From: Nitrospirota bacterium | GTDB taxonomy: Bacteria; Nitrospirota; Leptospirillia; Leptospirillales; Leptospirillaceae | NCBI GenBank assembly: GCA_021801345.1 | Contig: JAJYYA010000024.1 | Coordinates: 1 to 64,000 of the forward strand | Reading direction: 5' to 3' | DNA: 64,000 nt | Shown: positions 5,463-24,664 of the stretch, in pieces | Numbering within the stretch: position 1 is the stretch's first letter | Layout of the letters: each line of letters opens with the position of its first letter | Notes under the pieces: generated by a model | The model's database searches: none | The model's input: only the letters and a program-made list of their open reading frames with translations | What the model was told of the DNA's origin: nothing | Program-made: the position numbers and the translations under genes

Positions 5463-5819
5463 GACAACCTCCCGATTTAAAGCCATTTTCACCCTCCGAC
5501 ACACCTTCTCAGAGAGTAACTTGCCGGATAATTCCACACCGTTCCCGTCCCGGATCTGAAAAAAGTCATCCCGGCTCCTTTGGCAAGATCTGCAAGCGTC
5601 ATCCCGATCAGGAGGCAAATGACAACCTCAGGTAGGGAGACAATCCAAGTAATATCCCGAGACAGCCTGACACTCTGAAATCGAGCGATCTCTATAATGG
5701 TAATACAATACGAGTCAAAGTCTGACGTTCCCCCCCCGGCCAAAATGTTCTTGTTCTCGATGCGCTTTCATGTCAAACTTTAAGAAATATGGTAGAAATC
5801 ATTCCACCATGGAGGAAGA

Positions 5820-6071
5820 ATGGCGCTGAACATTAAGGATCCGGAAGCGCACAATCTCGCGCAAATGATTGCTGAAGAAACGGGAGAGACACTCACCCGA
5901 GCGGTCAAAGAGGCCTTGCGCGAACGGCTTGACCGCATTCGGCGTCATAGAAGGCCCGAAGCAACGGTGGAAGATCTTCTTGCGATCGGTGTTCGCTGTG
6001 CCGCGACCCTCAAGGGCCGACCGGTCGATCATGAGGCCCTGCTCTACGACGATCGGGGACTTCCCCGATGA
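5820..6071 (+). CDS. vapB: VapB-family antitoxin
   Basis: This 83-residue protein begins MALNIKDPEAHNLAQMIAEE and continues TGETLTRAVKEALRERLDRI, the VapB-type ribbon-helix-helix with the conserved TGET stretch. The C-terminal part is expected to wrap the toxin. Its stop overlaps the toxin start by 4 bp (ATGA), so the two are translationally coupled. Autorepression by the pair is usual in this family. Confidence 0.88.
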   Translation: MALNIKDPEAHNLAQMIAEETGETLTRAVKEALRERLDRIRRHRRPEATVEDLLAIGVRCAATLKGRPVDHEALLYDDRGLPR

Positions 6072-6457
6072 TCATCGATACTTCCGCAATCATCGCAATT
6101 CTGTTTAACGAGGACGACGCCAGTCTTTATGCCGAAGCCATCGTCAAAGCGGATGACTGCCGCATCTCGGCTTCGACATTCGTCGAAACAGCCATTGTCA
6201 TTGAGGCTCAGACAAAAAATGGTGGAAGTCATCAGTTCGACACTTTTCTTCGGCGAGCGGGAATTAAAATCGAACCCGTCACAGAAGAACACGCCCATAT
6301 CGCAAGACAAGCCTATGCTGACTTCGGCAAGGGTCGGCATCCCGCCGCGCTCAATTTCGGAGACTGCTTTTCCTATGCTTTAGCAAAAGCCTCCGGAGAG
6401 TCTCTCCTCTTCAAAGGCGAGGATTTCAGGAAAACTGACATCAGATCCGCTCTCTGA
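6068..6457 (+). CDS. vapC: VapC-family PIN-domain toxin
   Basis: The 129-residue protein has the four conserved acidic positions of a PIN ribonuclease: MIIDTSAIIAIL at the N-terminus, FVETAIVIEA in the middle, and NFGDCFSYALAKASGESLLFKGEDF near the end. Length is normal for VapC. It follows vapB with a 4-bp overlap. VapC toxins cleave tRNA or rRNA in an Mg-dependent way until neutralised; the target here cannot be read from sequence. Confidence 0.9.
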   Translation: MIIDTSAIIAILFNEDDASLYAEAIVKADDCRISASTFVETAIVIEAQTKNGGSHQFDTFLRRAGIKIEPVTEEHAHIARQAYADFGKGRHPAALNFGDCFSYALAKASGESLLFKGEDFRKTDIRSAL

Positions 6458-6774
6458 CAATCCTTGCAAAGATCTGACGCAGATCGGAACTGGAGAGAGG
6501 ATCCTTGAGATTAAGCGTTCCCGCCCGTTTTCCAGAAATCCCGAGCGGAATCGGAGTTCCGGTTCAATTGGGAAAACCATGATGGTTCCGAGTCGGCAGA
6601 GGACTTTTCCTTTTTCCGCCCTTCCGGCCTGCTTGCAAATAGGTTTATTCTCTTCAAATAGAAGATTTTGCTAAATTTCCGGGTTCTCTCCGACGCTTCT
6701 TCCTTCATAGAGGATATCGATGGGAGAACTCGGGGCACAACTTTGACCCACGAAAACATCGGATGATCCAAAAG
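6458..6774. other. Intergenic stretch without recognised features
   Basis: Between vapC and the terminator of the receptor fragment no open frame has recognisable homology and I see no RNA gene or repeat. Confidence 0.45.
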
Positions 6775-6803
6775 AAAAGGCCTGCCGTTGAGGCAGGCCT
6801 TTT
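6775..6803 (-). terminator. Rho-independent terminator after the receptor fragment
   Basis: The stretch is a perfect 12-bp inverted repeat (AAAAGGCCTGCC / GGCAGGCCTTTT) around a 5-base loop. On the minus strand it ends in a T run and lies 35 bp past the stop of the TonB receptor fragment. Symmetry would let it act in both directions. Confidence 0.85.
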
Positions 6804-6837
6804 CTCAAACTCGTACTCCGGAAAACTTCCCCGGACT

Positions 6838-8102
6838 CTAGAAGGTAAACTGTGCTCCGGCGAAGATATTGACAGGCTCGCCGGGGTAGACGAAAAGCAT
6901 TTCCGGATTGCTCCCGTACCCCGTCAATCCGGCGGGGTTGTAGTAGTTCGTGTTGAGAAGGTTGTAGGCGCTGAGATACAGATTCGCCTTCTTGTACCAC
7001 CGGGGACAGGCCGGAAGATCGTAGGTCGCATAAAGATCGGTCACAAAGTATCCGGGAACGTTCTGCTGGGCTCCCGTACCGGTGTCGATCACATTCATCA
7101 TTCCGGTATAGCGCTCGTCCACAGTCAGGTGGTACGGACCGTGGTCGTAGGAGACCGCCACGTTCCCCATGTCGAGCGGCACGAAGGGAATCATCCCCCC
7201 TTCGAGATTGAGCGTTCCATTTGGAGTAGCGGCAGTCACACCGCTTACGGGAGTATTTCCGAGAACTCCATAGAAGTAGGTGAAATTGGCCGAGCCGGAG
7301 AAGCCGTAGCCCAGATCGATCTTCCCTTCCGTTTCGATCCCCTGCTCCCGGGCCTGGCCGATATTCTCGAACTGATTGTAATTCGTACCTGCCGAGTTCG
7401 AATAGGTCACAGCAACCGGCATATTGGAGATGTAGTCGCTGAAGACATCTCCCGCCAAAAACCCTCTCTTCGTTCCGTAACGGACGCCGGCGCTGAGATC
7501 CCAAACGGTTTCAGGATTGACGCCATTGGCGGCCGTTCCGGGCGCAAACCCCTTGTAGTCGAAAATTGCCGGGGGAGCAAACGACTCTCCGCCGGTAACG
7601 TAAATCTTCCAGTCGTCGTTCGGATAGTAGTTCAGTCCCACATGGGGCATGGGAATCAGCATGGAGCCTCCGTTGCTGACTCCGACCCCGCCGCCTCCCC
7701 CATAGGATCCCCCCGGGCCGCTGTTGTTGTAAAGACTAAACTGGCTGGAAGGCACCTGGTCGTTAAAGTACTGGGCCACGCTCGCCACCCGGAACCCCAC
7801 GTTCAGAAGAACGGGCTTGACCGGCCGGTAATGGTCCTCAAGATATCCCACGATGCTTGTCTGGGAGTAGATGGCGTCGACCGTGCCTCCAACAATATTG
7901 TTGGACAGAAGGGGGTCCGTATAGTAGTGATAGGTCGCATACTGCCCCTTCATGCCCAGATAGAGGTTGTCATCCTTCCAGAGCCGGTATTTGATCTCGG
8001 CAATATCGCCCGCCTTGTAGCCTTCAGCTTGATAGTAGTTCTGGAGAAACTGGTATCCGAGCTGATTGCTCATGTTCGGATTGATCGAATTGAATCCTAG
8101 TG
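6838..8102 (-). pseudogene. TonB-dependent receptor, C-terminal barrel only, cut by an IS
   Basis: About 420 residues of an outer-membrane beta-barrel are present. Strands alternate with aromatic belts (YLGMKGQYATYHYYTDPLL, SGSANFTYFYGVLGN, AVSYDHGPYHLTVDERYTG) and the protein ends AGAQFTF with a terminal Phe, as TonB-dependent receptors do. The frame is open right up to the IS4-type element at 8103, and the signal peptide, TonB box and plug domain are absent. They are not on the far side of the element either, where a complete small gene begins. So the insertion was accompanied or followed by loss of the 5' half. The ATG at 8073 is within the barrel and not a natural start. Confidence 0.75.
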
Positions 8103-10570
8103 CTGCCTATTCCCCACAAGTCACCTGAAGCTTAATTTTAGCCAAATTTTCACCCGCTGTTGAGCTCGAAGCCCAGGCAGAGGTCCTGGAGCCTGCCATA
8201 TCCGCTCCAGATCGCCATATGGCCCGGAGGCGGATCGTTCTTGCGTCCCTGGTGCCCTCCCAGACGCCCCACGAGGCGGACGGCCTCGCCGATGGTCTCC
8301 GGAGGCTTGAGATTGCTTCTCTTGGCGAAGGTCTGCAAGACCGTCAGTTCGATTATCGTGAAGAGCTCTCCAGCGGGAAGATCCGGCTGCTCCCGTCCCA
8401 ATAGCGTCATGAGCATGATGCGCCAACCGATGACCAGACGGAGCGCGACGGCCCGTTCGAGACGAAGAGCGGTCTCGTGCGCGAGCGCCTCGACCTTGAG
8501 GCCCGACTTGAGGACCCGGTGCCAGTCCTCGATCCGCCACCGGAGGCAGTACCAGCGGACGCACTCCCAAAGATCGCCTCCGTCCGCGATCTCGACGGTC
8601 GTCAGAAGGAACCATTCGAGCGGCTCGCTTCCGTCCTCGGGCTCTCCCGTCTCCCGAAGGTGGAGCACGGTCAGCCGAACGGGCGCCAAGTTTTTCAGCT
8701 GCCCCGGAGGAAGGATGTCGATGACCCGGGCGCGCAGGACGCCCGTGGCGATCCGCTCCTCCCGCTTCTCTTTGGCCTTCTGCTTCGACTTCTTCGGCCG
8801 TGCGGAGAGACCCGGCACCGCGATCCGGAACGTCCCGATCTCGGGCGCTTCCCGTGCCGCCTCGAACAGGCTCGTCTTTTTCCCGTCCGCATCGACCGGG
8901 AGCGTGGTCCGGTCGTTCTTGGCCCGCACGAGGAGCTCGACCGCCCCCTTCCGCTGCCGGCGCTCGAAGAGCTCGAAGAAGTCCGCCTCCCGGTCCATCA
9001 CGCACACCACCCGCGTGTCGGGGAGCATCGAGGCGGCGTCTTCGCAGGCGGCGAGTCCCCGGATCCACATCCCGGACTTCTTCTCTTCGACCGGGATCTT
9101 GGAGGAGGGCCGCTCGTCCGGGACGTCCGGCGGAGCCGAGAACTCCGCTCCCAGCACCCCCAGGGGTACCCCCTCCGTCGTCACCGCCAGGACGGAGTGC
9201 AGAAGCAGCCCCCGGCTGCTGGCGCTCGTCTGGTTCTTCCCGATCTTGCCCAACCCTTCGCACTGGGCAAGACCCGTATAGTTCAGGACGGTTCCGTCCT
9301 GGAGGCATAGGACCGTCTTGCAGGAGGCCATCCGGGCCACGGTGCGGTCGTGGTGGGGGCCCAGGATCGCCTCCACCGTCACACCCGACTCTTCCGGCTG
9401 CTCGATCAGACGATAATATCCCTTGACCGCAGCCCCCTGACCGCAGGCGGCCCGGGAGAAGGACTGCCCCGGAGCCGCTCCCAGGATCTCCGCGCTCGCC
9501 TCAAGTCGATCCGAGAGCCGAACATCTCCCATCTCCGCTCCGCCGAACTCGTTCGACGCCCACTCAGAAGAGTCCACTCCTTCGGCAATCCCCAAAAAGG
9601 AGGTCGACTCCGGCAAAAGCCCCATCTCCTTCCGGAAGTCGGGGGCCAGGGGGGTGAGGTAGACCGTCTTCTCCGGTCCGGGAAGCGCTTTTGTCCCCTC
9701 CGGAAAGACTCCCTCCAGAGATTCGGAGACGCGGCCGGACGCCTCCTGTCCGTCCTTCCGGACGACGGTCTCCACGAGGAGCGGACGATATCCGTACAGG
9801 GACTCGAAGTCGTCCGGAAGCCTCTCGAGCACCCGGGCAAGGACCTGCGCCGCAAGACCCCGGCCGGCGACCTTCGTCCGCAGCAGGAACCGGCTCATCT
9901 CAAGCACCTTGGGAAGCTCCCATTTCCGGGTCTTCTCGTCCCATCCCATCCAGCGATCCCGGACCGAGAGGGGGTGGGAGGCCGCCACGAACCCCACCGC
10001 TCCCAGCCATCCGTGCGCCGATCCGATCAGATACCGGATCTGGGGCCCCACCATGAGGGCGGAGCTTCTCGTCGGATGTTCCCGAATCATCAATTCATTG
10101 TAGGTCCGGCGCTCCTCCTCGGTCTCCACCACCACAAGACGACATTCTTCCCACACAGTCGGAACCTCCGAGGGTTCTGCGACGGCTGTTCCCAGGCGCA
10201 CGGGGCTCCGATGTCCCTCCTGACGCAGGGCTCTTCCCGGGGGAAGGGTCACTCTCCCCTCCTCCGCAAGCTCCCGAAGCGCCCGCGCACATCCCGCGAC
10301 CCGCTCCTTTCCCCGCTGATCGAGCAGTCCGAACTCCCGGCACACGGCCCGGGCGCTCTCGCTCCGGCTTCGGAAGGAGCCTTCTGACAGGATCTTTCGT
10401 ACCTGATCGAGCGAGGCCGTCAGGGTCTGTTTGATGAAAAGACGCTCGGAAGTTTGCATGCGTCGATCATACGCACTCCCGACGCCTATGTCCAGCCCCC
10501 CTCGCTACCCCCCTCACGCTCCGGTCGTCCCGGATTTTGAAGCTCTCCCCGACTTGTGGGGAATAGGCAG
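8103..10570 (-). mobile_element. IS4-type element with perfect 20-bp inverted repeats
   Basis: The ends CTGCCTATTCCCCACAAGTC (8103-8122) and its exact reverse complement (10551-10570) bound a 2468-bp element with a single transposase gene. A six-base word CTAGTG abuts the left end and recurs two bases beyond the right end. This is not a clean target duplication, so rearrangement after insertion is likely. Confidence 0.88.
8150..10459 (-). CDS. IS4/Tn5-like transposase fused to a DUF4338 (DruA-like) domain
   Basis: The 769-residue protein has two parts. Residues from about 1 to 290 contain a DUF4338-like region (IRYLIGSAHGWLGAVGFVAA, then DRWMGWDE and RGLAAQVLARVLERLP), the domain shared with DruA of Druantia systems. 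The remainder is an IS4/Tn5-type transposase. It starts with a DNA-binding segment (NEFGGAEMGDVRLSDRLEAS) and has DDE motifs around LCLQDGTVLNYTGL and VVCVMDREADFFELF, plus an RWRIEDWHRVLKSG signature carrying the catalytic Glu. It ends with a dimerisation region. The fusion appears open and complete. It should mobilise the element whose inverted repeats flank it. Confidence 0.85.
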   Translation of the reverse strand: MQTSERLFIKQTLTASLDQVRKILSEGSFRSRSESARAVCREFGLLDQRGKERVAGCARALRELAEEGRVTLPPGRALRQEGHRSPVRLGTAVAEPSEVPTVWEECRLVVVETEEERRTYNELMIREHPTRSSALMVGPQIRYLIGSAHGWLGAVGFVAASHPLSVRDRWMGWDEKTRKWELPKVLEMSRFLLRTKVAGRGLAAQVLARVLERLPDDFESLYGYRPLLVETVVRKDGQEASGRVSESLEGVFPEGTKALPGPEKTVYLTPLAPDFRKEMGLLPESTSFLGIAEGVDSSEWASNEFGGAEMGDVRLSDRLEASAEILGAAPGQSFSRAACGQGAAVKGYYRLIEQPEESGVTVEAILGPHHDRTVARMASCKTVLCLQDGTVLNYTGLAQCEGLGKIGKNQTSASSRGLLLHSVLAVTTEGVPLGVLGAEFSAPPDVPDERPSSKIPVEEKKSGMWIRGLAACEDAASMLPDTRVVCVMDREADFFELFERRQRKGAVELLVRAKNDRTTLPVDADGKKTSLFEAAREAPEIGTFRIAVPGLSARPKKSKQKAKEKREERIATGVLRARVIDILPPGQLKNLAPVRLTVLHLRETGEPEDGSEPLEWFLLTTVEIADGGDLWECVRWYCLRWRIEDWHRVLKSGLKVEALAHETALRLERAVALRLVIGWRIMLMTLLGREQPDLPAGELFTIIELTVLQTFAKRSNLKPPETIGEAVRLVGRLGGHQGRKNDPPPGHMAIWSGYGRLQDLCLGFELNSG

Positions 10571-13582: not shown

Positions 13583-14629
13583 ATGGATGCATTTCTTATG
13601 GTAAATAATTTTGAAATTAAAGGCATCATTGGTCATTGTGGCGATAGAGAAGTATTCCTTGGCTTTGCGACAGCCGTTGATCTTAGCCGGATTAGTTTCC
13701 TCGATACATTGGATGAGTTCTCGGGGAAGGGGTATCAACGCCGATTCCATCGCCAACATAGTCTGGAATTCAAGCGATATATCCAACAGCCTGGCGCAAC
13801 AACGATCCCGTTAACATTTAATCTTCGCCCAGACCGTAAGGGATGGGACTTGAAGCGCAATACGCAAGGAGCATCTCTTATAGTGGATGTTCATTCAATG
13901 CCAGTGATGTCTCAAGTCGATTGTCAGCATCGGCTCGGATATTTGAAAGAAAGCCAAATTCCCTTCGCATTTATGGCTTACATCGGTTTGACTATCGAAG
14001 AGGAAATGGAAATATTTCGGATTATTAATGGTAAGGCCAAAGGCCTAAGCGGCAGCCTGCTCGATTTTACCGGATCCCGTTTGGTCGAAGACGACCTGAA
14101 AGCTGTAAAGCCCGAACTCTTTCTTGCATTGGTATTGCATGAAGACAGGCGATCCCCGTGGTATAAATGTCTCGATTTGGGAGGTAATCGAACGACGGGG
14201 CTTCAGCGGGTGGCTTCACTTCGAACGATGCAGAAAGGTGTGCGTCGCTTCCTTCGCGAGGCAGGTTTGTCGAACAAGGAGGTCAGTGATTCCATCGCAA
14301 CGTTACTTATTGATTATTGGCGAGCGGTCACTGTGGTACTGCCAAAGCAATGGAGTCAGCCACGGCAACACGTATTAGTCAAGGGTATAGGAGTGTATTG
14401 CTTGATGAGTTTGGCCGGAGATCTCTACCGTGAGTCCTTGAGTAAGGCTGGGATGTGTGACATTGATTATTTCATAACGATGTTGTCCGACTTCGTTAAT
14501 GATATCGATTGGTCAAACAAGGGGTCGATGAAGGGTTACGGCGGCGCCGGCGGCGCTGATTCAGCACTGGAACTACTCCGCCAGGTCAGAGACCAAAAAC
14601 TATCCGGATGTGTAAATTATGCCAAATAA
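13583..14629 (+). CDS. DGQHR-like (DndB-related) protein, variant motif DCQHR
   Basis: The 348-residue protein carries VDCQHRLGYLKES at residues 112-124, a variant of the DGQHR motif in which Cys replaces Gly. After it come IGLTIEEEMEIFRIINGKAKG and the helical C-terminal half usual for the family. DGQHR proteins include DndB of phosphorothioation systems and are tied to DNA modification gene clusters. The start at 13583 has no strong ribosome site and an in-frame ATG at 13598 is possible. The stop overlaps the radical SAM gene by 11 bp. The AT-rich codon use differs from the host genes on either side, suggesting transfer. A role in controlling or guiding DNA modification is inference. Confidence 0.72.
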   Translation: MDAFLMVNNFEIKGIIGHCGDREVFLGFATAVDLSRISFLDTLDEFSGKGYQRRFHRQHSLEFKRYIQQPGATTIPLTFNLRPDRKGWDLKRNTQGASLIVDVHSMPVMSQVDCQHRLGYLKESQIPFAFMAYIGLTIEEEMEIFRIINGKAKGLSGSLLDFTGSRLVEDDLKAVKPELFLALVLHEDRRSPWYKCLDLGGNRTTGLQRVASLRTMQKGVRRFLREAGLSNKEVSDSIATLLIDYWRAVTVVLPKQWSQPRQHVLVKGIGVYCLMSLAGDLYRESLSKAGMCDIDYFITMLSDFVNDIDWSNKGSMKGYGGAGGADSALELLRQVRDQKLSGCVNYAK

Positions 14630-16217
14630 GAATGTTCTTCTTATAGAGCCTGGATATAAAAATAAGTATCCACCGCTTGGTTTAATGAAACTTGCTGCCT
14701 ACCACGGTCCATATGGGAAGCGAGACAACGTCAAATTCATAAAAGGTGATAAGGATAAATCGGTCAAACAGATCAACTGGGATCGAATTTATGTCACCAC
14801 GCTTTTCTCGTTTGAATGGAAAGAAATATCAAAATCCATTGATGCGGCGATTGCCATAGCACGTGGTGACTCTACCAAGGTGTTTGTTGGTGGTATCGCA
14901 GCCTCACTCATGCACGATAGGTTTGTGTCTGAGCCTCGCTGGAGAGGGGTGCGATTCATTTCTGGATTGCTATCAAACTCCCCAGCTGAATCTTTACAGC
15001 TCGACGACTTTGCCGAAGAATTATATTCAGACGACACTAACGGAACTCCCATTGAGGACTTAGTTCCTGACTACTCGATCCTTGATCAAATCAAGGATCA
15101 ATATGTTTACCCCGTTCACGACGCTTATTTTGCCTATGCATCGCGTGGTTGTGTTCGCAAGTGCCATTTCTGTGGGGTTCCGAAGTTGGAAGGTGATCAG
15201 CGAGATGCTCAATCAATCACTGGACTGATCAAAGCTATCGCGGAACGTCACGGTGAAAAACGCGATCTGATGTTGATGGACAATAATATTGTGGCATCAC
15301 CAAACTACAAAAATATCATCGCCGAGATTCGTGACAATGGTTTTCAGAGGGGAGCCATGTTCCGTAGGCCAGGTAAACCAGCGGTGCAACGCCGGGTTGA
15401 TTTTAATCAAGGAGTAGATGCCCGAATTCTCTGCAATAGTAAAATGTACCTGAAGGAAATGTCCACCATTGCTATACGTCCTCTTAGAATCGCCTTCGAT
15501 CATCTCGGAGTTCGTGAGGAATATGAGCGAGCAATTCGCATGGCTCATAGTGTTGGACTACATGACTTGTCAAATTATATGCTTTATAACTTTTCAGACA
15601 CTCCGGCAGACCTTTATGAACGCATGCGTATTAACATCGATTTGAATAATGCACTCGGGATTAGAATCTTCTCATTCCCAATGCGGTATCACCCTACCGA
15701 CCTGCCTGATCGATCCTATATTGGTATTTATTGGAATCGTTATTATCTCCGGTCTATGCAGATCATCTTGCAGGCCACACATGGTGTTGTTAGCGGCTCT
15801 CCGCAATTTTTTTGTAGGGCTTTTGGTGAAAGTAAAGAAGAATTCGAAGACTTGTTATTGCGCCCTCAGCATTTTTTATTCAATCGATTCTGGTATGAGG
15901 AGTTCGATGGCCGGGCTGAGTTTGATGAATTTGAATTAGATTTCAAAAGGTTGTCGAAGGATGATCGCAAGGAGTTAGTGGATCTATTGTCCAGCACCAC
16001 CCCCGGGGGCTTTTCTGGGTTGATAGGGAAGTCTTCCCGCAACAATGTCAATCGGATACTTAGCTACTATGTTCCCCTACCCGAGAATGAAGAAGCGAAA
16101 ATATGGAAGATTCAGCGTATGCGTTTGCAAGAGAACAAGCGACCACAATTTTTCGATAAAAAAATCATCCCTGCAGATGAGCTGGTCGAAGATGCCGGCT
16201 TGGCTGAAACCATCTGA
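14619..16217 (+). CDS. Radical SAM enzyme with B12-binding-like N-terminus
   Basis: The 532-residue protein has a Rossmann-like N-terminal region (NVLLIEPGYKNKYPPLGLMK, then KVFVGGIAASLM) typical of cobalamin-type radical SAM proteins. The B12-ligating DxHxxG motif is not evident. The cluster motif is ASRGCVRKCHFCGV with Cys178, Cys182 and Cys185 placed as CxxxCxxC to hold a 4Fe-4S cluster. Enzymes of this type methylate, thiolate or rearrange unreactive carbons, including nucleobases. Its tight linkage with DGQHR-like and HSP90-like genes (11-bp overlap upstream, 5-bp gap downstream) suggests a DNA or nucleotide modification step. Substrate is unknown. Confidence 0.82.
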   Translation: MPNKNVLLIEPGYKNKYPPLGLMKLAAYHGPYGKRDNVKFIKGDKDKSVKQINWDRIYVTTLFSFEWKEISKSIDAAIAIARGDSTKVFVGGIAASLMHDRFVSEPRWRGVRFISGLLSNSPAESLQLDDFAEELYSDDTNGTPIEDLVPDYSILDQIKDQYVYPVHDAYFAYASRGCVRKCHFCGVPKLEGDQRDAQSITGLIKAIAERHGEKRDLMLMDNNIVASPNYKNIIAEIRDNGFQRGAMFRRPGKPAVQRRVDFNQGVDARILCNSKMYLKEMSTIAIRPLRIAFDHLGVREEYERAIRMAHSVGLHDLSNYMLYNFSDTPADLYERMRINIDLNNALGIRIFSFPMRYHPTDLPDRSYIGIYWNRYYLRSMQIILQATHGVVSGSPQFFCRAFGESKEEFEDLLLRPQHFLFNRFWYEEFDGRAEFDEFELDFKRLSKDDRKELVDLLSSTTPGGFSGLIGKSSRNNVNRILSYYVPLPENEEAKIWKIQRMRLQENKRPQFFDKKIIPADELVEDAGLAETI

Positions 16218-16222
16218 AACAG

Positions 16223-17812
16223 GTGTCAAAAATGAATGTTACTCCCATCAGTATTTCTATAAAACCTAAGACCCTGATCGAATCGAATATCGTCGTAGGT
16301 AAGGACGTCCTCGAACTCCTAGCAAATGCAATGTATCTTGATCCTCTGACGATCTATCGTGAATATGTTCAAAATGCCGCCGACTCCATTGATGAAGCTA
16401 GAATGGCCGGGCATTCAGTGAAAGACTCGAACATCATGATTCACCTGGACCATTCTAGCCGTACGGTACTTATTCGTGACAATGGTAAAAGCATTCCAAA
16501 TGATGAGTTTGTCAAACGCCTAACTGCCATCGGTGCGAGTCATAAGCGTGGCACTGACCTTCGTGGTTTTAGAGGCGTAGGCCGTCTATCTGGTCTTGGA
16601 TATTGCCAGGAGTTGATCTTTCGTGGCAAAGCCAAGGACGATTCGAGGGTCATTGAGGTTTCTTGGAATAGCCGTACCCTCAAGGAAAAACTAATGGAGG
16701 CTTCGTATCCCGGTGGTCTTAAAGACATTATCTCCGAAGTTGTTACTTATAATGACTTCCCCGCTACGGATAAGGGCGAGCAGTTCTTTGAAGTTGAGTT
16801 AAGGAAGGTCCAGCGTCTAAAGAACGACTTACTTATGAATGAGCAAGCGATTCGGTCCTATCTCTCACAGGTGGCTCCGGTACCCTTCAGTCCAGATTTT
16901 ACGTTTGGGGAAGAGATTCAGAAATTTTTAGCGGAACGGGGAATCCATCCAGTGATCCATGTCGAACTAAATGATGGAGCAGGTCAAATTTATCACCGTG
17001 CCCGAAACACTATTGAATTTAATCCTAAGGTCCATGATACGCTGAGAAAGATCGAATTCATCGAGATTTTCGGAGACGACGGTGAATTATCGGCCTTTGG
17101 GTGGGTTGCGGATCACTCATACTTGGGTGCGATTCCCAAAAGACTTGGGCTTGGAGGCATTCGGCTACGTTCGGGAAACATACAAGTAGGTGATGAATCT
17201 CTGCTAGCTCCGTTGTACCCGGAACAGCGTTTCGTTGCCTGGGCGATGGGCGATATTCATGTGTTATCAAAGAAGATCATCCCGAATGGCAGACGCGATG
17301 ATTTCGAACACAACGTTCACTACTCTTGGTTGCAATCGGAACTTTTAACCAAGACTAGTGAACTGGCACACCGAATACGTACACGCTCTCAGCAACGCCA
17401 ACATCTACGAAACGTCCAGATTCATTTTCAGTCCATAGATGACTGGTATCGTCTTGCACAGAAAGATGATACTCCATTACTCCTGAAAAAGGCCCTAATC
17501 GAACTAACTGATGAACAAGTTCAGAAGACTGCTAAGGAATTAAGAAAGCTTGCGGAGGGCAGCAATGAACACCAAATGGCCACGGAGCGGCTTAACCAGA
17601 AATCAATCGATATTCGTGCACTCAGCCATATGATCGAAGGCAGAGAACACTTGGGGGTCATAAATATCTCCAAAGTCACAGAAAAAGCGCTACTCAAGGC
17701 ACTGAAGGTGGTCCTGTCGAATGCCCGTTCAGCAAAGGTTGGGACGAAGACTGCCCTTGATATTGTCGAAGCGGTAACTCAGGGGGGGGAGGCAAATTAT
17801 TCTAATGATTGA
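16223..17812 (+). CDS. HSP90-like (GHKL) ATPase
   Basis: The 529-residue protein has the Bergerat ATP-binding fold near its N-terminus. YREYVQNAADSIDEAR holds Glu47, Asn51 and Asp54, IRDNGKSIP is the second motif, and GFRGVGRLSGLG (about residues 115-126) is the lid glycine motif. The middle and C-terminal parts, with long helices late in the protein, do not match HtpG, MutL or gyrase closely. GHKL ATPases act as chaperones or DNA clamps; stand-alone versions occur in several defence islands. GTG at 16223 or ATG at 16232 may start it. Its 3' end overlaps the convergent ParB-like gene by 11 bp. A chaperone or clamp role for the neighbouring enzymes is inference. Confidence 0.82.
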   Translation: MSKMNVTPISISIKPKTLIESNIVVGKDVLELLANAMYLDPLTIYREYVQNAADSIDEARMAGHSVKDSNIMIHLDHSSRTVLIRDNGKSIPNDEFVKRLTAIGASHKRGTDLRGFRGVGRLSGLGYCQELIFRGKAKDDSRVIEVSWNSRTLKEKLMEASYPGGLKDIISEVVTYNDFPATDKGEQFFEVELRKVQRLKNDLLMNEQAIRSYLSQVAPVPFSPDFTFGEEIQKFLAERGIHPVIHVELNDGAGQIYHRARNTIEFNPKVHDTLRKIEFIEIFGDDGELSAFGWVADHSYLGAIPKRLGLGGIRLRSGNIQVGDESLLAPLYPEQRFVAWAMGDIHVLSKKIIPNGRRDDFEHNVHYSWLQSELLTKTSELAHRIRTRSQQRQHLRNVQIHFQSIDDWYRLAQKDDTPLLLKKALIELTDEQVQKTAKELRKLAEGSNEHQMATERLNQKSIDIRALSHMIEGREHLGVINISKVTEKALLKALKVVLSNARSAKVGTKTALDIVEAVTQGGEANYSND

Positions 17813-18803
17813 ACCCGTTGATTTTCTTGGCTATATGCTTGATGCGGGATTCGATCTTGTTAATTAAGTATGAAAGATTCGATCGCTCCTCAGAGGAAAT
17901 ATTTGTAAGCTCGAGCTCAACATTTTCTTCAGCAAGGAAATCCTTGAACTCGGTGAGCCTTTTAGCATAGTAGTTGCCAGCTCCCCGGATATGAGCTTCC
18001 TGAAGTGCATCGTGAAACGACAGTTTGCCATTCATGAATTTCTTGAGAGTGTTTCCTCCGACCTTTACGATCTTCGATAGCCCATCGCGAATATCAACAG
18101 CACGTTCGATTTCTTCATTTTTGATCATTTCGGTAATTTTCTGATCAAAAATGGGGTAAAGCTCACGTGTGTGATTAAACCGACGACCTTTTAATAGTTC
18201 GTCGTAATAACTCCATCGTTCTGGATTGCGGTCATCGACATTCAGCATGAACTCGTAGACATGAATAAGATGCCTTATCTTTGCTGGTGTCAACCCGACT
18301 TCGTGGTGCAATTGTTTTTCATCGATACCATGGGTCTTGAAACGCCGGTAAAGATACCCGGCTTGTTCGAATGGTGACCAGTCCTTCTTTCCAACGATGT
18401 GGAATTCACCAAGTAATGAGAACACTTCGCTGTCGGAAATGGTGTCGGGAAGAATCCGTACCCGGATCATCTCCCATGTGCTAGCATCCCGCTGCGCGAG
18501 GAGACGATAGGCTGCCAGTCGACTGTTCCCTTCAAGAACGATATTTTTACGAATCAGTACTGGCTCAATTAGGCCACCGTTGTTCTTGATACTTGGGACA
18601 AGGGTTTCGCGAACATGCTCGGTTTTCGCCAACGCCTCGAAAATCTCTTCCTGAGTTGGCTCACCTCCCCCTTCATTCCAGACGATGGAGTAGATGCGAG
18701 GATTCTCAGGGTAGAAAAGGAGAGTGTGTTGTGGTAGAAAGCCTGTTTTGACCTTGATCTCTCGTTTACGCAGCGTGATGGTGTCTTCCGTGAAATCACT
18801 CAT
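17802..18803 (-). CDS. ParB-fold protein 1
   Basis: The protein has a ParB N-terminal-like domain: GLIEPVLIRKNIVLEGNSRL at residues 77-96, where EGNSR takes the place of the canonical GERR box. A helical section resembling the ParB HTH/KorB region (LHHEVGLTPAKIRHLIHVYE) and a coiled C-terminus follow. The ATG at 18803 overlaps the helicase stop by 8 bp and is preferred to an upstream in-frame start inside the helicase gene. ParB-fold proteins bind or hydrolyse nucleotides (CTP, ATP) and some have nuclease or kinase-like activity. It is the last gene of the long minus-strand operon. There is no ParA partner, so chromosome partition is unlikely. Confidence 0.75.
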   Translation of the reverse strand: MSDFTEDTITLRKREIKVKTGFLPQHTLLFYPENPRIYSIVWNEGGGEPTQEEIFEALAKTEHVRETLVPSIKNNGGLIEPVLIRKNIVLEGNSRLAAYRLLAQRDASTWEMIRVRILPDTISDSEVFSLLGEFHIVGKKDWSPFEQAGYLYRRFKTHGIDEKQLHHEVGLTPAKIRHLIHVYEFMLNVDDRNPERWSYYDELLKGRRFNHTRELYPIFDQKITEMIKNEEIERAVDIRDGLSKIVKVGGNTLKKFMNGKLSFHDALQEAHIRGAGNYYAKRLTEFKDFLAEENVELELTNISSEERSNLSYLINKIESRIKHIAKKINGFNH

Positions 18804-20286
18804 CAGTCCTGGCTCCTCCCAGAATCCTTTTAAGTATTTCGAAAAAACCCAATGTAGCTCGCTCTGAATAAGCCCGTGCGTCAATGTCTCCCTGTGTGAG
18901 CTGTGCCGCTAACCGTTTTTCTTCTAGCAGACAATCTACCCATTCGTCGACTGAATCAACCATGAGCATGTTGTATACGTAACATGTTTTTGTCTGTGAG
19001 ACCCGATGAATGCGGTCCTGTGCCTGCAAGTAATCGTCAAGACTGTACGTGCGATCATAGAAGATGACATGATTCGCTATGGTCAACGTCAAACCTTCCT
19101 TGGCAGCACCGGGTGTCGCGACGAGCACCTGGTCATCGGGATTCTCAAGGAACCATTTTACGACGGTATTGCGCCTTTCCATCGGCATCTTGCCATTGAG
19201 CGCGAGCGCACCAAATGATGACAGTTTATTAAACAGCCATAAGCAGTTGTCGTTGAAGGTTGTCCAGACAATTGCCTTCTCCCCTTGGCGCGTAATATCA
19301 GTGAGCAAGTGATAGAGGGGCTCGAATTTTCCGGGCTCCGCTGTATAACTTTCGTCCACCATGACAGGATTGGAAGCAATTTGTATGAGTCGAAGCAGGC
19401 GCTTTAATATTGACTCCTGATCTTCCTCGATCAGTTTTCCATCGCGAACAATCAGGGCACGAAGCTCTTCTCGCACCTGCCGGTACAACTCGAACTGTGC
19501 CAACTCCCAATCGCACTCGATACGTTGGAACTCCTTCGAGGGCAAGACAATTCGTCCACCGTCCTTGGTTTCCCGAATGGAGAAGCTTGATATTTTGCGA
19601 TTAATATCCTCCAACCGATGTTGGTAAGCCTCAAATTCTTGTTTGCTGTGTTGGATGCCCGTCGTCAAGTCTGTTTCACGCTTGAATTTATTAAAGTCCC
19701 TACCAAGCGATGCACCGTGGTCAAGGAAATAAACCTGAGCCCATATGTCGTAGGGACGGTTTGCGACCGGTGTTCCAGTCATGATTACCCGCTTAGTGAA
19801 CAGAGGGGATAGTTCGAAAAATGCCTGTGTAAGTTCGGCGTCAGGATTCTTGATCTTGGCAGACTCATCGATGATTACACCCACTCTCCTGGAGGATAGC
19901 CATGCCTTGAAGCGATTAATTTCTTTTTTGGCTGACTCAAAGTGACTAAGCACCAGGCGGGTAGGGGTTGTGAACACATAGTAGTTTTTGGTCGAATTTT
20001 CTGTGACGACGAGGGGGGTCAATTGGCTGTGTGATCGGAATTCGCGAATCCAGTTTGCGATCAACCCCTTCTTGGTGAAGACGAGTACGGTATCGACTTC
20101 CTTGTTCTGGAGCCAACGCAATATTACATCAATGGCAATCTTTGTTTTTCCCAAGCCCTGCTCATGAAAAATAGCCGAATAATCTCGGCAAGCAACAAAT
20201 TCAGTTGCTTCCTCCTGGTAAGGGAACGCCTTGTACTTTGCTTCAAGCACTGGCTCTGAGTGGAGTCGAAATCTGAATTCATTCAT
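18796..20286 (-). CDS. SNF2-type superfamily 2 helicase
   Basis: This is a 496-residue two-lobed helicase. Motif I is EQGLGKTK (GLGKT at residues 44-48), motif II is IIDESAKIKNP (DESA rather than DEAH), motif III is MTGTPVANRP, and the C-terminal lobe ends with QAQDRIHRVSQ (motif VI). These mark it as SNF2-like: DNA translocases that move along duplex DNA. There is no fused nuclease; a PD-(D/E)XK-like gene lies directly upstream with an 8-bp overlap. I chose the ATG at 20286 because it sits in the overlapping ATGAATGA. SNF2 helicases of this size are common restriction components of Dpd and related modification systems. Confidence 0.88.
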   Translation of the reverse strand: MNEFRFRLHSEPVLEAKYKAFPYQEEATEFVACRDYSAIFHEQGLGKTKIAIDVILRWLQNKEVDTVLVFTKKGLIANWIREFRSHSQLTPLVVTENSTKNYYVFTTPTRLVLSHFESAKKEINRFKAWLSSRRVGVIIDESAKIKNPDAELTQAFFELSPLFTKRVIMTGTPVANRPYDIWAQVYFLDHGASLGRDFNKFKRETDLTTGIQHSKQEFEAYQHRLEDINRKISSFSIRETKDGGRIVLPSKEFQRIECDWELAQFELYRQVREELRALIVRDGKLIEEDQESILKRLLRLIQIASNPVMVDESYTAEPGKFEPLYHLLTDITRQGEKAIVWTTFNDNCLWLFNKLSSFGALALNGKMPMERRNTVVKWFLENPDDQVLVATPGAAKEGLTLTIANHVIFYDRTYSLDDYLQAQDRIHRVSQTKTCYVYNMLMVDSVDEWVDCLLEEKRLAAQLTQGDIDARAYSERATLGFFEILKRILGGARTDE

Positions 20287-20719
20287 GCCAAAATCTCCTA
20301 ACACTCGATGAACCTAGCACGTAAGAGATCACGCAGATAGGAATGTTTTCGGAATTAGTTCTCCTCCGTATGAGTTTGCAGACACGGATCGCAGTGCCCG
20401 CAGACAACCATGGTACACCTATCCATAGTTCTCCCTCCGATTGTGTACGTAGGTAATCGAAGAAAGAAGTTAGCTGGTCAGTGGTATGCTGGTTGTCAAT
20501 ATCGTCAGTTGTTTTTGCTTCGCCAATGAGTGTACGGCCAGTCGAAAGGTCACGGGCAAAGACATCGGGGCGATTGGAGCCGATATATGGAGGCGGTTCT
20601 CTAGAGACTAAATCTTGAAGGTCGAAATAGACTACTGGTAACTTGTTCCAGCGAATATCATTGGCGATATCGTTGGCCAGTGCTCTGACAAGGAAGCGGT
20701 GATGCTCGCTCTCACTCAC
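20279..20719 (-). CDS. Small PD-(D/E)XK nuclease-like protein
   Basis: The 146-residue protein has RPDVFARDLSTGRTLIGEAK, which gives Asp52 and the E-x-K pair Glu67/Lys69 of the PD-(D/E)XK fold, then a helix with TTDQLTSFFDYLR. The size fits a minimal nuclease domain. It overlaps the helicase downstream and the ParB-fold gene upstream by 8 bp each, so the three are coupled. Cleavage of foreign or unmodified DNA after helicase loading is a reasonable inference, not shown. Confidence 0.68.
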   Translation of the reverse strand: MSESEHHRFLVRALANDIANDIRWNKLPVVYFDLQDLVSREPPPYIGSNRPDVFARDLSTGRTLIGEAKTTDDIDNQHTTDQLTSFFDYLRTQSEGELWIGVPWLSAGTAIRVCKLIRRRTNSENIPICVISYVLGSSSVRRFWHE

Positions 20720-21743
20720 TGTCGGTGATCAGGCCTATATCTCTGCAAAGATCATGTAGCTCCTCGTAGCAGTCGGAGAGTGCTTGGGAACGAGGGGAAT
20801 CATTGTCTTCTCTGAGGGCCTTCACATCAGGGTAGTTGAGACTTCTAATCTTACTGGCGAGAGCATTTGCTAATTGATCTATGGTTGCATCTTTAATTAC
20901 TGCGCTTGTGTTTGGTTGCTCAAGTACCTTCATGGCTTCACGAGCGTCATGAGATAAGAATTTTTTCTTGGCTTCAGGGTTGTTCAATATTCGCGGAAGC
21001 TGACGAACTGTATTCAATGGAGTGATTTTTGAATCATTAACCCATCTAGCAAAGTTATCCATTGTAAATCCTGCCTTCACAATGGATTCTTTGACCTTGG
21101 GCTTTTGTAATTCGACAAACGCGCTAAATCTAGTGTAATCGGGCTGATTCTGACCAACCAAAGGCATGTAGAAACGCTGCATATCCTTATAAGCTTCGAT
21201 ATACTCAACGATTTCTCGATTTCTGGCGGAGCCACCGCAGTAGTCAAGAATTTCGTTGATCGATAGCTTTTGTTCGGCGTATAGCGAGTGTAGGTATTTT
21301 GCTTTGGCATATGGACGCCATTGACGAGGGCCGACCAAGTGGGACTGTAGTCGGATTGCGTGTTCACCTTCTTCCTCAATGTCCGGGCGAACGATTGCTG
21401 GAATCGTATCCCATGATCCGGGGGCCTTTTCTTCCGCAAGTTGGCGATAAATCGATACGCGGGTATTCCCTTCAATTACCACATACTTGCCATCAGTGCG
21501 CGGTGTGACAACAATGGGGTTAATTAAGCCTTTATAGGCGCGGATTGATGCTTTGAGACTGGAAAAAGTTGTTGATGAGCCTTTTTCATCGTCATCAGGG
21601 GCAAATTGCCCTAATGCAAGCTCAATAAAGCTCTGTTGAGGTTCGCCCTCAATAGACTCTAAGGCTGGAGCAACACGTGGATTGCGTAGGTCAAGGATGA
21701 TTTTGTCGATTGGTAAATACTGAATCGCCAATTCATTCATCAT
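20712..21743 (-). CDS. ParB-fold protein 2
   Basis: The 343-residue protein contains GLINPIVVTPRTDGKYVVIE followed by GNTRVSIYRQL, with EGNTR at residues 91-95 in the position of the ParB nucleotide-binding box. The rest is helical. It resembles the first ParB-fold protein in plan but the two are clearly diverged. ATG at 21743 or the next codon starts it. It overlaps the nuclease gene by 8 bp. Paired ParB-fold proteins without ParA suggest they sense nucleotide or modification state; that is inference. Confidence 0.75.
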   Translation of the reverse strand: MMNELAIQYLPIDKIILDLRNPRVAPALESIEGEPQQSFIELALGQFAPDDDEKGSSTTFSSLKASIRAYKGLINPIVVTPRTDGKYVVIEGNTRVSIYRQLAEEKAPGSWDTIPAIVRPDIEEEGEHAIRLQSHLVGPRQWRPYAKAKYLHSLYAEQKLSINEILDYCGGSARNREIVEYIEAYKDMQRFYMPLVGQNQPDYTRFSAFVELQKPKVKESIVKAGFTMDNFARWVNDSKITPLNTVRQLPRILNNPEAKKKFLSHDAREAMKVLEQPNTSAVIKDATIDQLANALASKIRSLNYPDVKALREDNDSPRSQALSDCYEELHDLCRDIGLITDSE

Positions 21744-21850: not shown

Positions 21851-23008
21851 CTACGTCTCTAATTGAAGATCTTCAAGGTTCGGGGCTTCGCTAACAGAGT
21901 AGGTAAGCTTGTCCACGCCCAGCAAAGCTTTTGCCAGCTTAATGGCACCCGCGCCACTACTAGGAAAGTTATTTGAGGTGAGCGAGAAGTTGTTCAAGTT
22001 TATCTTTAGACGGGCGAATTGACCTTCAAAGAATTCTTGTCTTAGATCTTTGTGTTTGAACCCCTCTTCCAAGAGATGGCGAAACACAATAATTAGGGCT
22101 GTATATCCAACCGTCTTTCGAATCACGAAATTCCCTTCAGAATCTTCCCATTCCTCCTCAAAGGTTTTTGCGGCGGCAGAGAAATAATTTTTTACTATTT
22201 TCAGTATAAATTGATCATCGCCCTTCTTAAAATATTTGCGTAGTGGACACCGTGGGTCATCATTAAGTTCTTGTTTCCCTTCCTTCAATATCCGCGCATC
22301 TTCATTCGGCTCTTTGGAAATAAGCTCTTCCAGCCTAGCAGCAAAACTACCTTGTGAAAGCATAACATCCTGAAGATGATGAGGCTCCCTTCTCCCAAGC
22401 ATTTTTAATCGTTTATAGAATGGACTTTCAGGATCGCTATTTAGTGATTGTGCTATATAGTGACAGGTTTTCTGTGGGCTGCGTGAATCAGATAAACCAA
22501 ATAAGTCATAAATTAAGGATTTCGAAACAGGTGTTTGCGTGCTGTTTATGATCGAGAAGACGAATGCTTTCTCATCTAAAGAAAGATCAAACATAAGTAC
22601 AACAGGCAACTCGAAATATTCTATATTATTTAGAGATTGTTTAAGGCCCAACACACGGTGTTGTCCATCCAGAACATCGCCAATCATCCCATCGTCAGGT
22701 AGTTCAAAACTGGTTAACGACGGATTACAGTTGGAATCTTCACTTTGAAGATTGACCCTCCTTTCAGGGGCAATTTTGCTATCCAGCGCAATTATTATAG
22801 GTGTGGGAAAAACAGCCTGAGGGTCGCCGGTAAAATCAGCAATCTTTTGTACGCGCTCACCACTGAACATACGCTGAATCTCTTCACTGTGCTCAAAGTC
22901 AGAAGTTCGTGGACGATTGTTTACTCTTCCAACCAAAACGCGCGCAGGAAGTGATGAGATATAGAACTCACCAAGCGGCTGCTGAACCCGAAAAGCCAAT
23001 ACCCTCAT
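21851..23008 (-). CDS. DGQHR-domain (DndB-like) protein 2
   Basis: The 385-residue protein has a perfect family motif, DVLDGQHRVLGLKQS (DGQHR at residues 114-118). FVFSIINSTQTPVSKSLIYD follows, which is also characteristic. Length fits the DndB/DGQHR families. In phosphorothioation systems DndB acts as a regulator and may bind DNA or NAD-like nucleotides; here the modification enzymes DndACDE are absent. It lies 107 bp upstream of the ParB-fold gene and 16 bp downstream of the membrane protein gene in the same operon. Confidence 0.85.
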   Translation of the reverse strand: MRVLAFRVQQPLGEFYISSLPARVLVGRVNNRPRTSDFEHSEEIQRMFSGERVQKIADFTGDPQAVFPTPIIIALDSKIAPERRVNLQSEDSNCNPSLTSFELPDDGMIGDVLDGQHRVLGLKQSLNNIEYFELPVVLMFDLSLDEKAFVFSIINSTQTPVSKSLIYDLFGLSDSRSPQKTCHYIAQSLNSDPESPFYKRLKMLGRREPHHLQDVMLSQGSFAARLEELISKEPNEDARILKEGKQELNDDPRCPLRKYFKKGDDQFILKIVKNYFSAAAKTFEEEWEDSEGNFVIRKTVGYTALIIVFRHLLEEGFKHKDLRQEFFEGQFARLKINLNNFSLTSNNFPSSGAGAIKLAKALLGVDKLTYSVSEAPNLEDLQLET

Positions 23009-23024
23009 TTCTCACTTATCCTTA

Positions 23025-23624
23025 TTAGACCTTCTCGCCAAATGAAGTTTCATTCTGAGTCTTTGCTTTTTCATTAAGGTCCCGTACTTCCTTGTTTACA
23101 TCATCAGCAAAGTGCTGTGGTATCAATGGTATCCTATAGAGGGTATATAAATGCAACGCAATCATCATGCTCAGCACCCATAATAAAATTTCCAACGAAT
23201 AATTGGTATTCACCTTCTGAGAAGCCGGTTCTGAGAGGAGTGGTCCGGCCAATGTAGCTTGAAAGATTACAAAAATACCTGCGACAATGCTCCAAAAGAG
23301 CTTTTGTTCAAAAAGATCAAGCTTTTCTTTAGAATAAAATGCATCGATAATTTCTGATATGATTAGACCCACGCTTGATACGACTATAGATATTGAATAA
23401 GTGTACATGGTGGCGGATGCAAGGTTCTGAGTTAAAACGTCATGGAACTTTTCGCCGTTTTGCAAAGTTAGAAGAAATGAAACCCATACGCCCAATTGTC
23501 CAACAATTAAACTAACCGCTATAAAGAGAAGAAGGGAGGTTTTGTCCTGCCGACAAGCCTCCATATAGAGAGAGTATGTATTTTGAATAAATATTTTTAT
23601 ATGCGCCAACCTGTTTCCTTTCAA
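23025..23624 (-). CDS. Four-helix membrane protein
   Basis: Four hydrophobic segments are visible in 199 residues: LLLFIAVSLIVGQLGVWVSF, TYSISIVVSSVGLIISEII, LFWSIVAGIFVIFQATLAGP and LEILLWVLSMMIALHLYTLY. A charged tail follows. I do not recognise the family. A transmembrane component in an otherwise DNA-directed operon is reminiscent of abortive-infection effectors that damage the membrane, but there is no motif that proves this. Confidence 0.6.
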   Translation of the reverse strand: MKGNRLAHIKIFIQNTYSLYMEACRQDKTSLLLFIAVSLIVGQLGVWVSFLLTLQNGEKFHDVLTQNLASATMYTYSISIVVSSVGLIISEIIDAFYSKEKLDLFEQKLFWSIVAGIFVIFQATLAGPLLSEPASQKVNTNYSLEILLWVLSMMIALHLYTLYRIPLIPQHFADDVNKEVRDLNEKAKTQNETSFGEKV

Positions 23625-23630
23625 TTTTTC

Positions 23631-24185
23631 TCACTCCGGAAACGAAATCCCCAAGTTTTTCAAGCGAAACTCTACCATTTGCGCACTCACCTTGTACTCT
23701 TTTGAGATCCTCCCAACGATTTTCTTCCAATCCAGTATTTTTTTCTTTCCAATTACTTGAAGGGACTTCTCTACAAAATCTTTTGGCATCAATAGTTCAG
23801 CCGCGAATCCATTAGCTTCGATCTCCTCTTTGTCGATAGCTAAGGCGGACTTAGAATCCCTGTAACGAATTATGGGGGAGTCGACATACATTTTTCCCTC
23901 ATGGCACAAAAGATGGCCAATCTCATGGGCAATTGTGAAACGTTGGCGGTGAATGTGATTCGTCGAGTTCACCCCGATGACTGGTTGCCCCTCATCCCGA
24001 TAAAGCATTCCATAAACCTCTTCCTCCCCTTCGCGGGAAGGCTCGTAAACGAGTCTTGCTCCCAACGAATCCGCGATTCTTTCCACTGGTACCGGAGCTG
24101 ATTTCACCCCGTTTTTTTCGAGAAGATCTCTGACCATTGATTCAATATTAGGCATTTCTTTCAAGCTCTCCTGCTGATCATCCAT
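23631..24185 (-). CDS. ImmA/IrrE-family zinc metallopeptidase
   Basis: The 184-residue protein has the motif RFTIAHEIGHLLCHEG with His87, Glu88 and His91 forming HExxH, and the later Glu in the EIEANGFAAELLMP segment as the third ligand. ImmA/IrrE peptidases cut XRE-type repressors to release genes of mobile elements or stress responses. The XRE gene lies immediately upstream with a 1-bp gap, the classic ImmR-ImmA arrangement. It is thus likely to control this operon and perhaps the divergent transposition genes. Confidence 0.87.
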   Translation of the reverse strand: MDDQQESLKEMPNIESMVRDLLEKNGVKSAPVPVERIADSLGARLVYEPSREGEEEVYGMLYRDEGQPVIGVNSTNHIHRQRFTIAHEIGHLLCHEGKMYVDSPIIRYRDSKSALAIDKEEIEANGFAAELLMPKDFVEKSLQVIGKKKILDWKKIVGRISKEYKVSAQMVEFRLKNLGISFPE

Positions 24186-24186
24186 T

Positions 24187-24507
24187 TCAGTTTTTTGGAT
24201 TTTTAGAAGGTCTTCGTATAACTCTTTCCGCCCATCCTCCCTTTTTTGAGGGGTTCTCCGTAATCTCCCTGGCGTCGCTCAGGCTTGTCTCGATAGGAGG
24301 GAGAAGAGAATTCAAGTCACACTTTAAGGCTAAAGCGATCCGGTAGAGAAGAGGAAGAGAGATACTTTGGCGCCCGGCCTCAAGATTGGCGATCGTTGTT
24401 CGGACGACACCAACCCTGTCGCCGAGTTCTACTTGGGTGATCTCGGACCTCTTCCGTTCTTCGGCGAGCTTTTTTCCAAAGGCAATGTTGACGGGATTGG
24501 GTTTCAT
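24187..24507 (-). CDS. XRE-family transcriptional regulator
   Basis: The 106-residue protein is a Cro/C1-type helix-turn-helix: FGKKLAEERKRSEITQVELG followed by DRVGVVRTTIANLEAGRQSI. It has a short tail that would be the cleavable part for the ImmA-like peptidase encoded next. It reads away from tnsAB across a 157-bp gap that contains several palindromes, the likely operators. Autorepression and repression of the divergent promoter are inferred. Confidence 0.85.
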   Translation of the reverse strand: MKPNPVNIAFGKKLAEERKRSEITQVELGDRVGVVRTTIANLEAGRQSISLPLLYRIALALKCDLNSLLPPIETSLSDAREITENPSKKGGWAERVIRRPSKNPKN

Positions 24508-24567
24508 GTTCGAATTCTAGGCTAAATGCAGAAAAGCGTCAATGAAAAAAACGACAAAGTCTTGAAA

Positions 24568-24637
24568 GTCATTTTAAATGACGGTATGATCGATTGCTGA
24601 AAGTCATCTGTGATGACATTATAATTTGTAATGTCAT
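24568..24637. promoter_or_regulatory. Cluster of palindromic operator-like sites between xre and tnsAB
   Basis: Three palindromes share the half-site GTCAT. They are GTCATTTTAAATGAC (24568-24582), GTCATCTGTGATGAC (24603-24617), and nine-base arms ATGACATTA / TAATGTCAT separated by seven bases (24613-24637), which overlap the second. They lie in the divergent promoter region and fit an XRE dimer bound at several sites. They could instead be TnsB-binding sites, but no terminal TGT or insertion junction is visible here. Confidence 0.6.
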
Positions 24638-24664
24638 TTTCTGTAACCTATAGAGGACGGGGTA

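Follow-up and report, generated by a model that had tools for sequence, protein, structure and literature searches.

The window analysed here, a stretch of 64,000 nucleotides, covers positions 1 to 64,000 of the forward strand of contig JAJYYA010000024.1 from the Nitrospirota bacterium assembly GCA_021801345.1. One of its genes codes for a radical SAM protein, and from its position next to a DGQHR-like gene the original prediction proposed a DNA- or nucleotide-modifying enzyme. The locus thus raises the question of what kind of system this gene is part of, and what its product acts upon. There is good support for viewing the surrounding cluster as a defence-type system that is both modular and mobile; a role in defence is likely, and for DNA as the substrate of the radical SAM enzyme the odds are about even. 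The genes of the cluster are as follows.

13583–14629, plus strand: DGQHR protein (DndB/DpdB-like, ParB/Srx superfamily), optional third core gene, translationally coupled
14619–16217, plus strand: radical SAM enzyme, core gene 1; ATG start, 532 amino acids; B12/UPF0004-like Rossmann N-domain, radical SAM barrel, helical C-domain
16223–17812, plus strand: GHKL/HSP90-like ATPase, core gene 2; Bergerat motifs E47xxxN51, D86xG88 and G118xG120 invariant
17802–18884, minus strand: ParB-like protein b, module M1; true start probably near 18803; ENPR and EGNxR motifs
18796–20304, minus strand: SNF2-family DNA translocase, module M1; best PHROG phrog_62
20279–20719, minus strand: small predicted PD-(D/E)xK nuclease, module M1; P51-D52 ... 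E67-A-K69 and Q82 invariant in 34 relatives
20712–21743, minus strand: ParB-like protein a, module M1; NPR and EGNxR motifs
21851–23008, minus strand: second DGQHR protein, accessory; TIGR04172-like, below cut-off
23025–23624, minus strand: small predicted membrane protein, accessory; no family match
23631–24185, minus strand: M78/IrrE-like metallopeptidase, likely a regulator with the adjacent HTH gene
24187–24507, minus strand: Cro/C1-type HTH regulator

The radical SAM protein and its fold

The open reading frame and its cluster motif CxxxCxxC (C178/C182/C185) are as first described; the start codon is aligned throughout the family, and the motif is kept in 164 of 165 relatives. A signature, VDFNQGxDAR, is located at residues 260–269. 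All bacterial and phage homologues have F63, G92, G177, C178, C182, N223, DFNQG (261–265) and D294 in common; invariant cysteines are confined to the radical SAM motif, and the window protein contains no cysteine before C178. The Pfam model PF04055 (Radical_SAM) matches with an E-value of 4.1e-5 and 24.3 bits, which is below the gathering score of 29.5, and the RimO and B12-type radical SAM families of NCBIfam gave sub-cut-off matches only. Assignment to the radical SAM superfamily is based on the CxxxCxxC motif, which is positioned on a radical SAM barrel, and on the match of the model to radical SAM structures. Homology to a family with an unrelated, proven small-molecule substrate did not emerge, the protein scoring far below all curated NCBIfam cut-offs.

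The structural comparison suggested along with the original prediction was performed with an AlphaFold2 model built from 66 homologues (pLDDT 93.5, pTM 0.91). Among the PDB entries TsrM ranked first (E 2.7e-10), followed by MiaB, CysS, TokK and RimO, at sequence identities of 10–15%. Based on these best matches, the protein starts with a Rossmann N-domain of the cobalamin/UPF0004 type, continues with a radical SAM barrel and ends in a C-terminal domain that is entirely helical, which agrees with the cobalamin-type N-terminal fold recognised earlier. The B12-ligating DxHxxG motif, which had likewise been reported as not evident, was found in the first 130 residues of none of the relatives (0/165). 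The N-domain is of the Rossmann B12-binding type, and the fold is shared with TsrM, CysS and TokK; however, since the defining DxHxxG feature is missing, membership in the cobalamin-dependent enzymes was dropped. To our knowledge, TsrM also lacks the usual DxHxxG histidine that provides the lower ligand, so that the enzyme may still bind cobalamin.

With MiaB and RimO, the protein shares the Rossmann N-domain, the radical SAM barrel and a GCxxxCxFCxVP-type cluster stretch. However, the three extra N-terminal cysteines of the second cluster are missing, the TRAM domain is replaced by a C-terminus that is all helical in the model, and the MiaB/RimO score in NCBIfam is 20.7 bits as compared to a cut-off of 356.95; identity as a methylthiotransferase was therefore dropped. 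The same observations bear on the idea that a MiaB-like enzyme acts on tRNA or phage RNA, with the nucleases of the cluster as a linked second layer. The ranking of MiaB and RimO among the best structure and HMM matches and the shared cluster stretch speak for it, but the missing cysteines, the helical domain in place of a TRAM barrel, and the partner proteins, which are DNA nucleases, SNF2 and ParB proteins, render it improbable.

A two-gene core with an optional third member

The 11-nt overlap of the DGQHR gene (13583–14629) with the radical SAM gene, noted before, is part of a conserved arrangement: 41 loci have a DGQHR gene immediately 5' of the radical SAM gene, and in 39 of them the two overlap, mostly by 8 nt. 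The DGQHR proteins score 107.5 and 177.6 bits against TIGR03187, above the cut-off of 58.85. The co-transcription emphasised in the original prediction thus reflects true coupling, but this partner is optional, and the invariant partner is the HSP90-like gene downstream (16223–17812). Being optional, the DGQHR coupling is insufficient to carry the argument for DNA modification alone.

Of 94 bacterial-type loci, drawn from many phyla, 93 have a GHKL gene immediately 3' of the radical SAM gene; the remaining one stops at a contig end. The overlap of the two genes is usually 1–4 nt. The model of the GHKL protein matches the N and middle domains of HtpG/TRAP1/HSP90 (E about 1e-14), and together with the Bergerat ATP-binding motifs this fold identifies the protein as an HSP90-like ATPase. 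The radical SAM enzyme and the HSP90-like ATPase form a two-gene core, and the DGQHR protein is an optional, coupled third member.

In the window, the operon of the core converges with that of the nuclease module; their last genes, coding for the GHKL and ParB-like proteins, share 11 nt (17802–17812), resulting in an antisense overlap of the 3'-ends. The accessory arm at 21851–24507 comprises the genes of the second DGQHR protein, the membrane protein, the M78 peptidase and the HTH regulator, of which only the DGQHR gene recurs beside a relative (locus L010).

Exchangeable nuclease modules and the question of the substrate

Five types of module accompany the core.

M1 (the window's set): ParB-like protein a, small PD-(D/E)xK protein, SNF2 translocase, ParB-like protein b
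M2: PIN_8 nuclease and a second GHKL protein
M3: NurA-like, HerA-like and GHKL proteins, labelled by similarity to Marinitoga virus annotations, without Pfam support
M4: HerA/VirD4-type ATPase, GHKL protein and an unknown protein
M5: DGQHR-nuclease fusion with an N-terminal D...ECR nuclease-like motif, judged by eye

Nuclease modules were recognised in 56 of the 59 loci that extend at least 7 kb to both sides; L064, one of the three others, contains HerA/GHKL genes, an M4-type set. The small PD-(D/E)xK protein did not match any Pfam family. In L029 (13174–18352), L041 and L064, the genes of a HerA/VirD4-type ATPase, a GHKL protein and an unknown protein lie at the core and are followed by a DUF5131 (Gp37/Gp68) gene.

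Co-divergence was assessed as the Mantel correlation of pairwise protein distances across loci. For the radical SAM protein, r is 0.86 with the GHKL protein (92 loci) and 0.69 with the DGQHR protein (41 loci), and correlations within modules are high as well (SNF2–ParBa, 0.93; ParBa–ParBb, 0.92; PIN–GHKL2, 0.95), whereas the values for the radical SAM protein versus ParBa, ParBb, SNF2, PIN and GHKL2 are only 0.24–0.43. Because core and modules each co-diverge internally but not with each other, the modules have been swapped between stable cores. The PIN module was considered as an essential part and dropped: of 40 carrier genomes, 11 contain it, and the genome of the window does not. ParBa matches in two genomes (G437, G457) were discarded as other ParB proteins in view of their weak scores and an identity of 21–25%.

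The tight co-divergence of the radical SAM and GHKL proteins would also be expected if the enzyme licensed or silenced the HSP90-like protein or a nuclease subunit by altering one of its side chains, and RimO- and TsrM-type folds do act on proteins or amino acids. However, the enzyme is combined with nuclease modules of several unrelated kinds, which would leave the GHKL protein as the sole conceivable protein substrate, and a precursor-like peptide gene is not present beside the radical SAM gene in the window; we give this explanation little credence. Module swapping is also compatible with a sensor or signal core that serves exchangeable effectors. The radical SAM enzyme would then form a modified nucleotide or small molecule upon infection, as in viperin- or CBASS-like systems, to trigger or feed the nuclease modules, and the HSP90-like ATPase, which resembles sensor and chaperone ATPases, would be the sensor. 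A constant core with exchangeable effectors is indeed reminiscent of signalling defences. Nevertheless, we consider this rather unlikely, since neither the radical SAM nor the GHKL protein matched any PADLOC-DB 2.0.0 model, and hence none of the viperin type, at E-values up to 0.1, and since the modules are multi-gene translocase-nuclease machines, not small-ligand-gated effectors, and no ligand-binding domain was recognised in these modules.

Among DNA modification systems, Dnd/Ssp (DndBCDE with exchangeable DndFGH or other nucleases) is similar in having an optional DGQHR/DndB protein and decoupled, swappable nucleases. In Dnd systems, the nucleases likewise vary independently of the core that sets the mark, and DndB is not always present: it occurs in 52% of taxa with a phosphorothioation modification system (PMC10853773). 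The cluster, however, is devoid of DndC, DndD and DndE, its core being the radical SAM enzyme and the HSP90-like ATPase. Resemblance to Dpd systems is seen in the DpdB-like DGQHR protein and in the SNF2-type helicase, which is similar to DpdE; but DpdA is missing, the DpdB score is 43 bits (cut-off 300), and the helicase is below its NCBIfam cut-off. Searches of the host genome for DndC and for DpdA, a TGT-like transglycosylase, did not retrieve either protein in spite of the DGQHR proteins present, so that dependence of the latter on a Dnd or Dpd system is unsupported. Genes with DNA-methyltransferase motifs were likewise not found in any of the clusters (0/94). With neither methyltransferase motifs in the 94 clusters nor DndC or DpdA in the genome, the radical SAM enzyme is left as the sole candidate for marking self DNA.

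The original prediction regarded radical SAM chemistry on DNA as new, but spore photoproduct lyase and the 5-aminoethyl-dU pathway of phage M6 are precedents, and MiaB and TsrM functionalise C–H bonds of other heteroaromatic rings. In other settings, the DndB/DpdB family, to which the DGQHR partner belongs, is connected with phosphorothioate and deazaguanine DNA. A mobile-element radical SAM gene has also been linked to DNA modification in the Thermus phages Cumys and phiMa, where a different module of radical SAM and DUF483 genes was independently proposed to make an unknown DNA modification; in contrast to the present core, an HSP90-like partner or nuclease modules are not described there (PMC11437467). 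Judged against Pfam, NCBIfam, PADLOC 2023 (PADLOC-DB 2.0.0), PHROGs, the PDB and open-licence papers, the system appears to be undescribed: PADLOC, Pfam, NCBIfam and the open-licence literature do not contain a description of it, and in that literature no defence function is described for radical SAM proteins combined with DGQHR, HerA, GHKL or HSP90 proteins.

The original assignment therefore stands as far as it places the radical SAM gene in a DNA-modification or defence-type cluster, as borne out by the conserved nuclease and translocase modules, whereas DNA or a nucleotide as substrate is suggested circumstantially: it fits the methyltransferase-free nuclease modules, the DndB-family partner and the MiaB-like fold. 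It counts against a DNA mark that enzymes with this fold act on peptides, tRNA, proteins and small molecules as well. On balance, we assign a probability of roughly 45% to a mobile, modification/restriction-like defence system with a core of radical SAM enzyme and HSP90-like ATPase, in which the former, as the catalytic half, marks self DNA. The radical SAM enzyme would place a protective mark on host DNA, most likely by C–H functionalisation of a base. The HSP90-like ATPase might act as an ATP-driven clamp or chaperone that positions or remodels the enzyme, and the coupled DGQHR protein might tune or target marking, as DndB does in phosphorothioation. The swappable nuclease module (in the window, two ParB-like proteins, the PD-(D/E)xK nuclease and the SNF2 translocase) would cut unmarked, presumably invading DNA.

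Removal of a lesion or a phage base modification, enabling the nucleases to act, is conceivable in view of the DNA-processing neighbour genes and of spore photoproduct lyase as a radical SAM enzyme in DNA repair. We see only a small chance for it, as Pfam and NCBIfam searches gave no match to the spore photoproduct lyase family, and a fixed recognition mark better explains the swapping of nucleases.

Distribution, phage homologues and genomic surroundings

At least 479 relatives are encoded in bacterial genomes, in addition to copies on viral contigs, and they span Alpha- and Gammaproteobacteria, Acidobacteria, Verrucomicrobia, Gemmatimonadetes, Chloroflexi, Latescibacterota and others. Within the phylum of the window, four of the 395 other genomes encode a protein of the same type, and none of 12 congeners does; in the order of Sinorhizobium, 3 of 397 genomes do. 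Mobile defence loci typically show such a rare and patchy spread. In a collection of 72,556 plasmids, the genes for full-length radical SAM, GHKL and DGQHR proteins are confined to one shared set of 12 records; the PIN gene occurs in these and one more, and ParBa in seven, all within the 12, although this co-occurrence rests on a small number (n=12) of plasmids that are related to one another. Carriers with sequenced plasmids include Novosphingobium aromaticivorans (pNL1), Rhizobium leguminosarum WSM1325 and Mesorhizobium sp. NZP2077. DISARM, Mokosh and PD-T7 proteins as well as CBASS genes are found in the neighbourhood of relatives. On a Mesorhizobium plasmid (L005, 25312–29737), a CBASS operon (patatin, CD-NTase, ThiF, Mov34) and a copy of the system are two to three genes apart.

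Plasmid copies, the ParB-like proteins and a Tn7-like element adjoining the window cluster might instead point to a module for mobile-element maintenance or for competition between elements on plasmids and transposons. The prospects of this non-defence role are slim, considering that the system is also chromosomal in many phyla and combines catalytic nuclease motifs with nearby defence genes.

The phage family phrog_9298 is homologous to residues 5–375 of the radical SAM protein (E 2.7e-38) and has the same signature residues, but its members comprise about 300 amino acids and mostly lack a GHKL partner. Core-type radical SAM proteins form a clade apart from the phage homologues (support 0.95). 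Neighbours of phage homologues are, in separate cases, ParB with an SNF2 helicase, a DNA methyltransferase, and PAPS reductase with methyltransferases. PP-loop proteins are enriched close to the phage homologues (5 of 211 within three genes, as compared to 0 of 593 farther away; p=0.001). An enrichment of methyltransferases at first looked real but was gone once near-duplicates had been removed (p=0.35). In one virus (L180, vir335; 5104–8369), whose assigned host belongs to the Methanomassiliicoccales, SNF2 helicase, radical SAM and ParB genes adjoin, mirroring the bacterial cluster without its GHKL gene.

A broader and more tentative proposal is that of a widespread and so far overlooked class of self/non-self DNA discrimination, in which the radical SAM enzyme, driven by the HSP90-like ATPase, would install a carbon-centred DNA mark, unrelated nucleases (ParB/SNF2/PD-(D/E)xK, PIN/GHKL, HerA/NurA, DGQHR-nuclease) would read it, and solitary phage homologues would forge it. 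If marking of DNA by the core pair holds true, a new DNA-marking chemistry and core pair would be added to the few modification-based immune systems (R-M, BREX, Dnd/Ssp and Dpd), HSP90-like ATPases would be tied to DNA marking, and a function would be obtained for phrog_9298 as well as for radical SAM and "ATP-binding protein" genes that, in their hundreds, lack a name. Even if the substrate is not DNA, the invariant radical SAM–HSP90 pair with its swappable nucleases calls for an explanation.

Several mobile-element genes are found on both sides of the window cluster. Tn7-like transposition genes at 24563–29918 code for a TnsA-N/TnsB fusion, TniB/TnsC and TniQ, and two TGAAAGTCAT-type repeats lie just 5' of them. 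The possibility that the cluster is cargo of this Tn7-like element was dropped, because the putative end repeats (24563–24625) separate it from the transposition genes; as the repeats sit between both, the element would run rightwards, away from the cluster. On the other side, the window contains an ORF of a Tn5-type transposase with an N-terminal DruA-like domain (PF14236) in a fusion-like arrangement (8150–10459), an ISAzo13-type transposase gene (2108–3364), and a gene of an OLD/AbiEii-like AAA_21 ATPase (529–1734), possibly a further defence gene.
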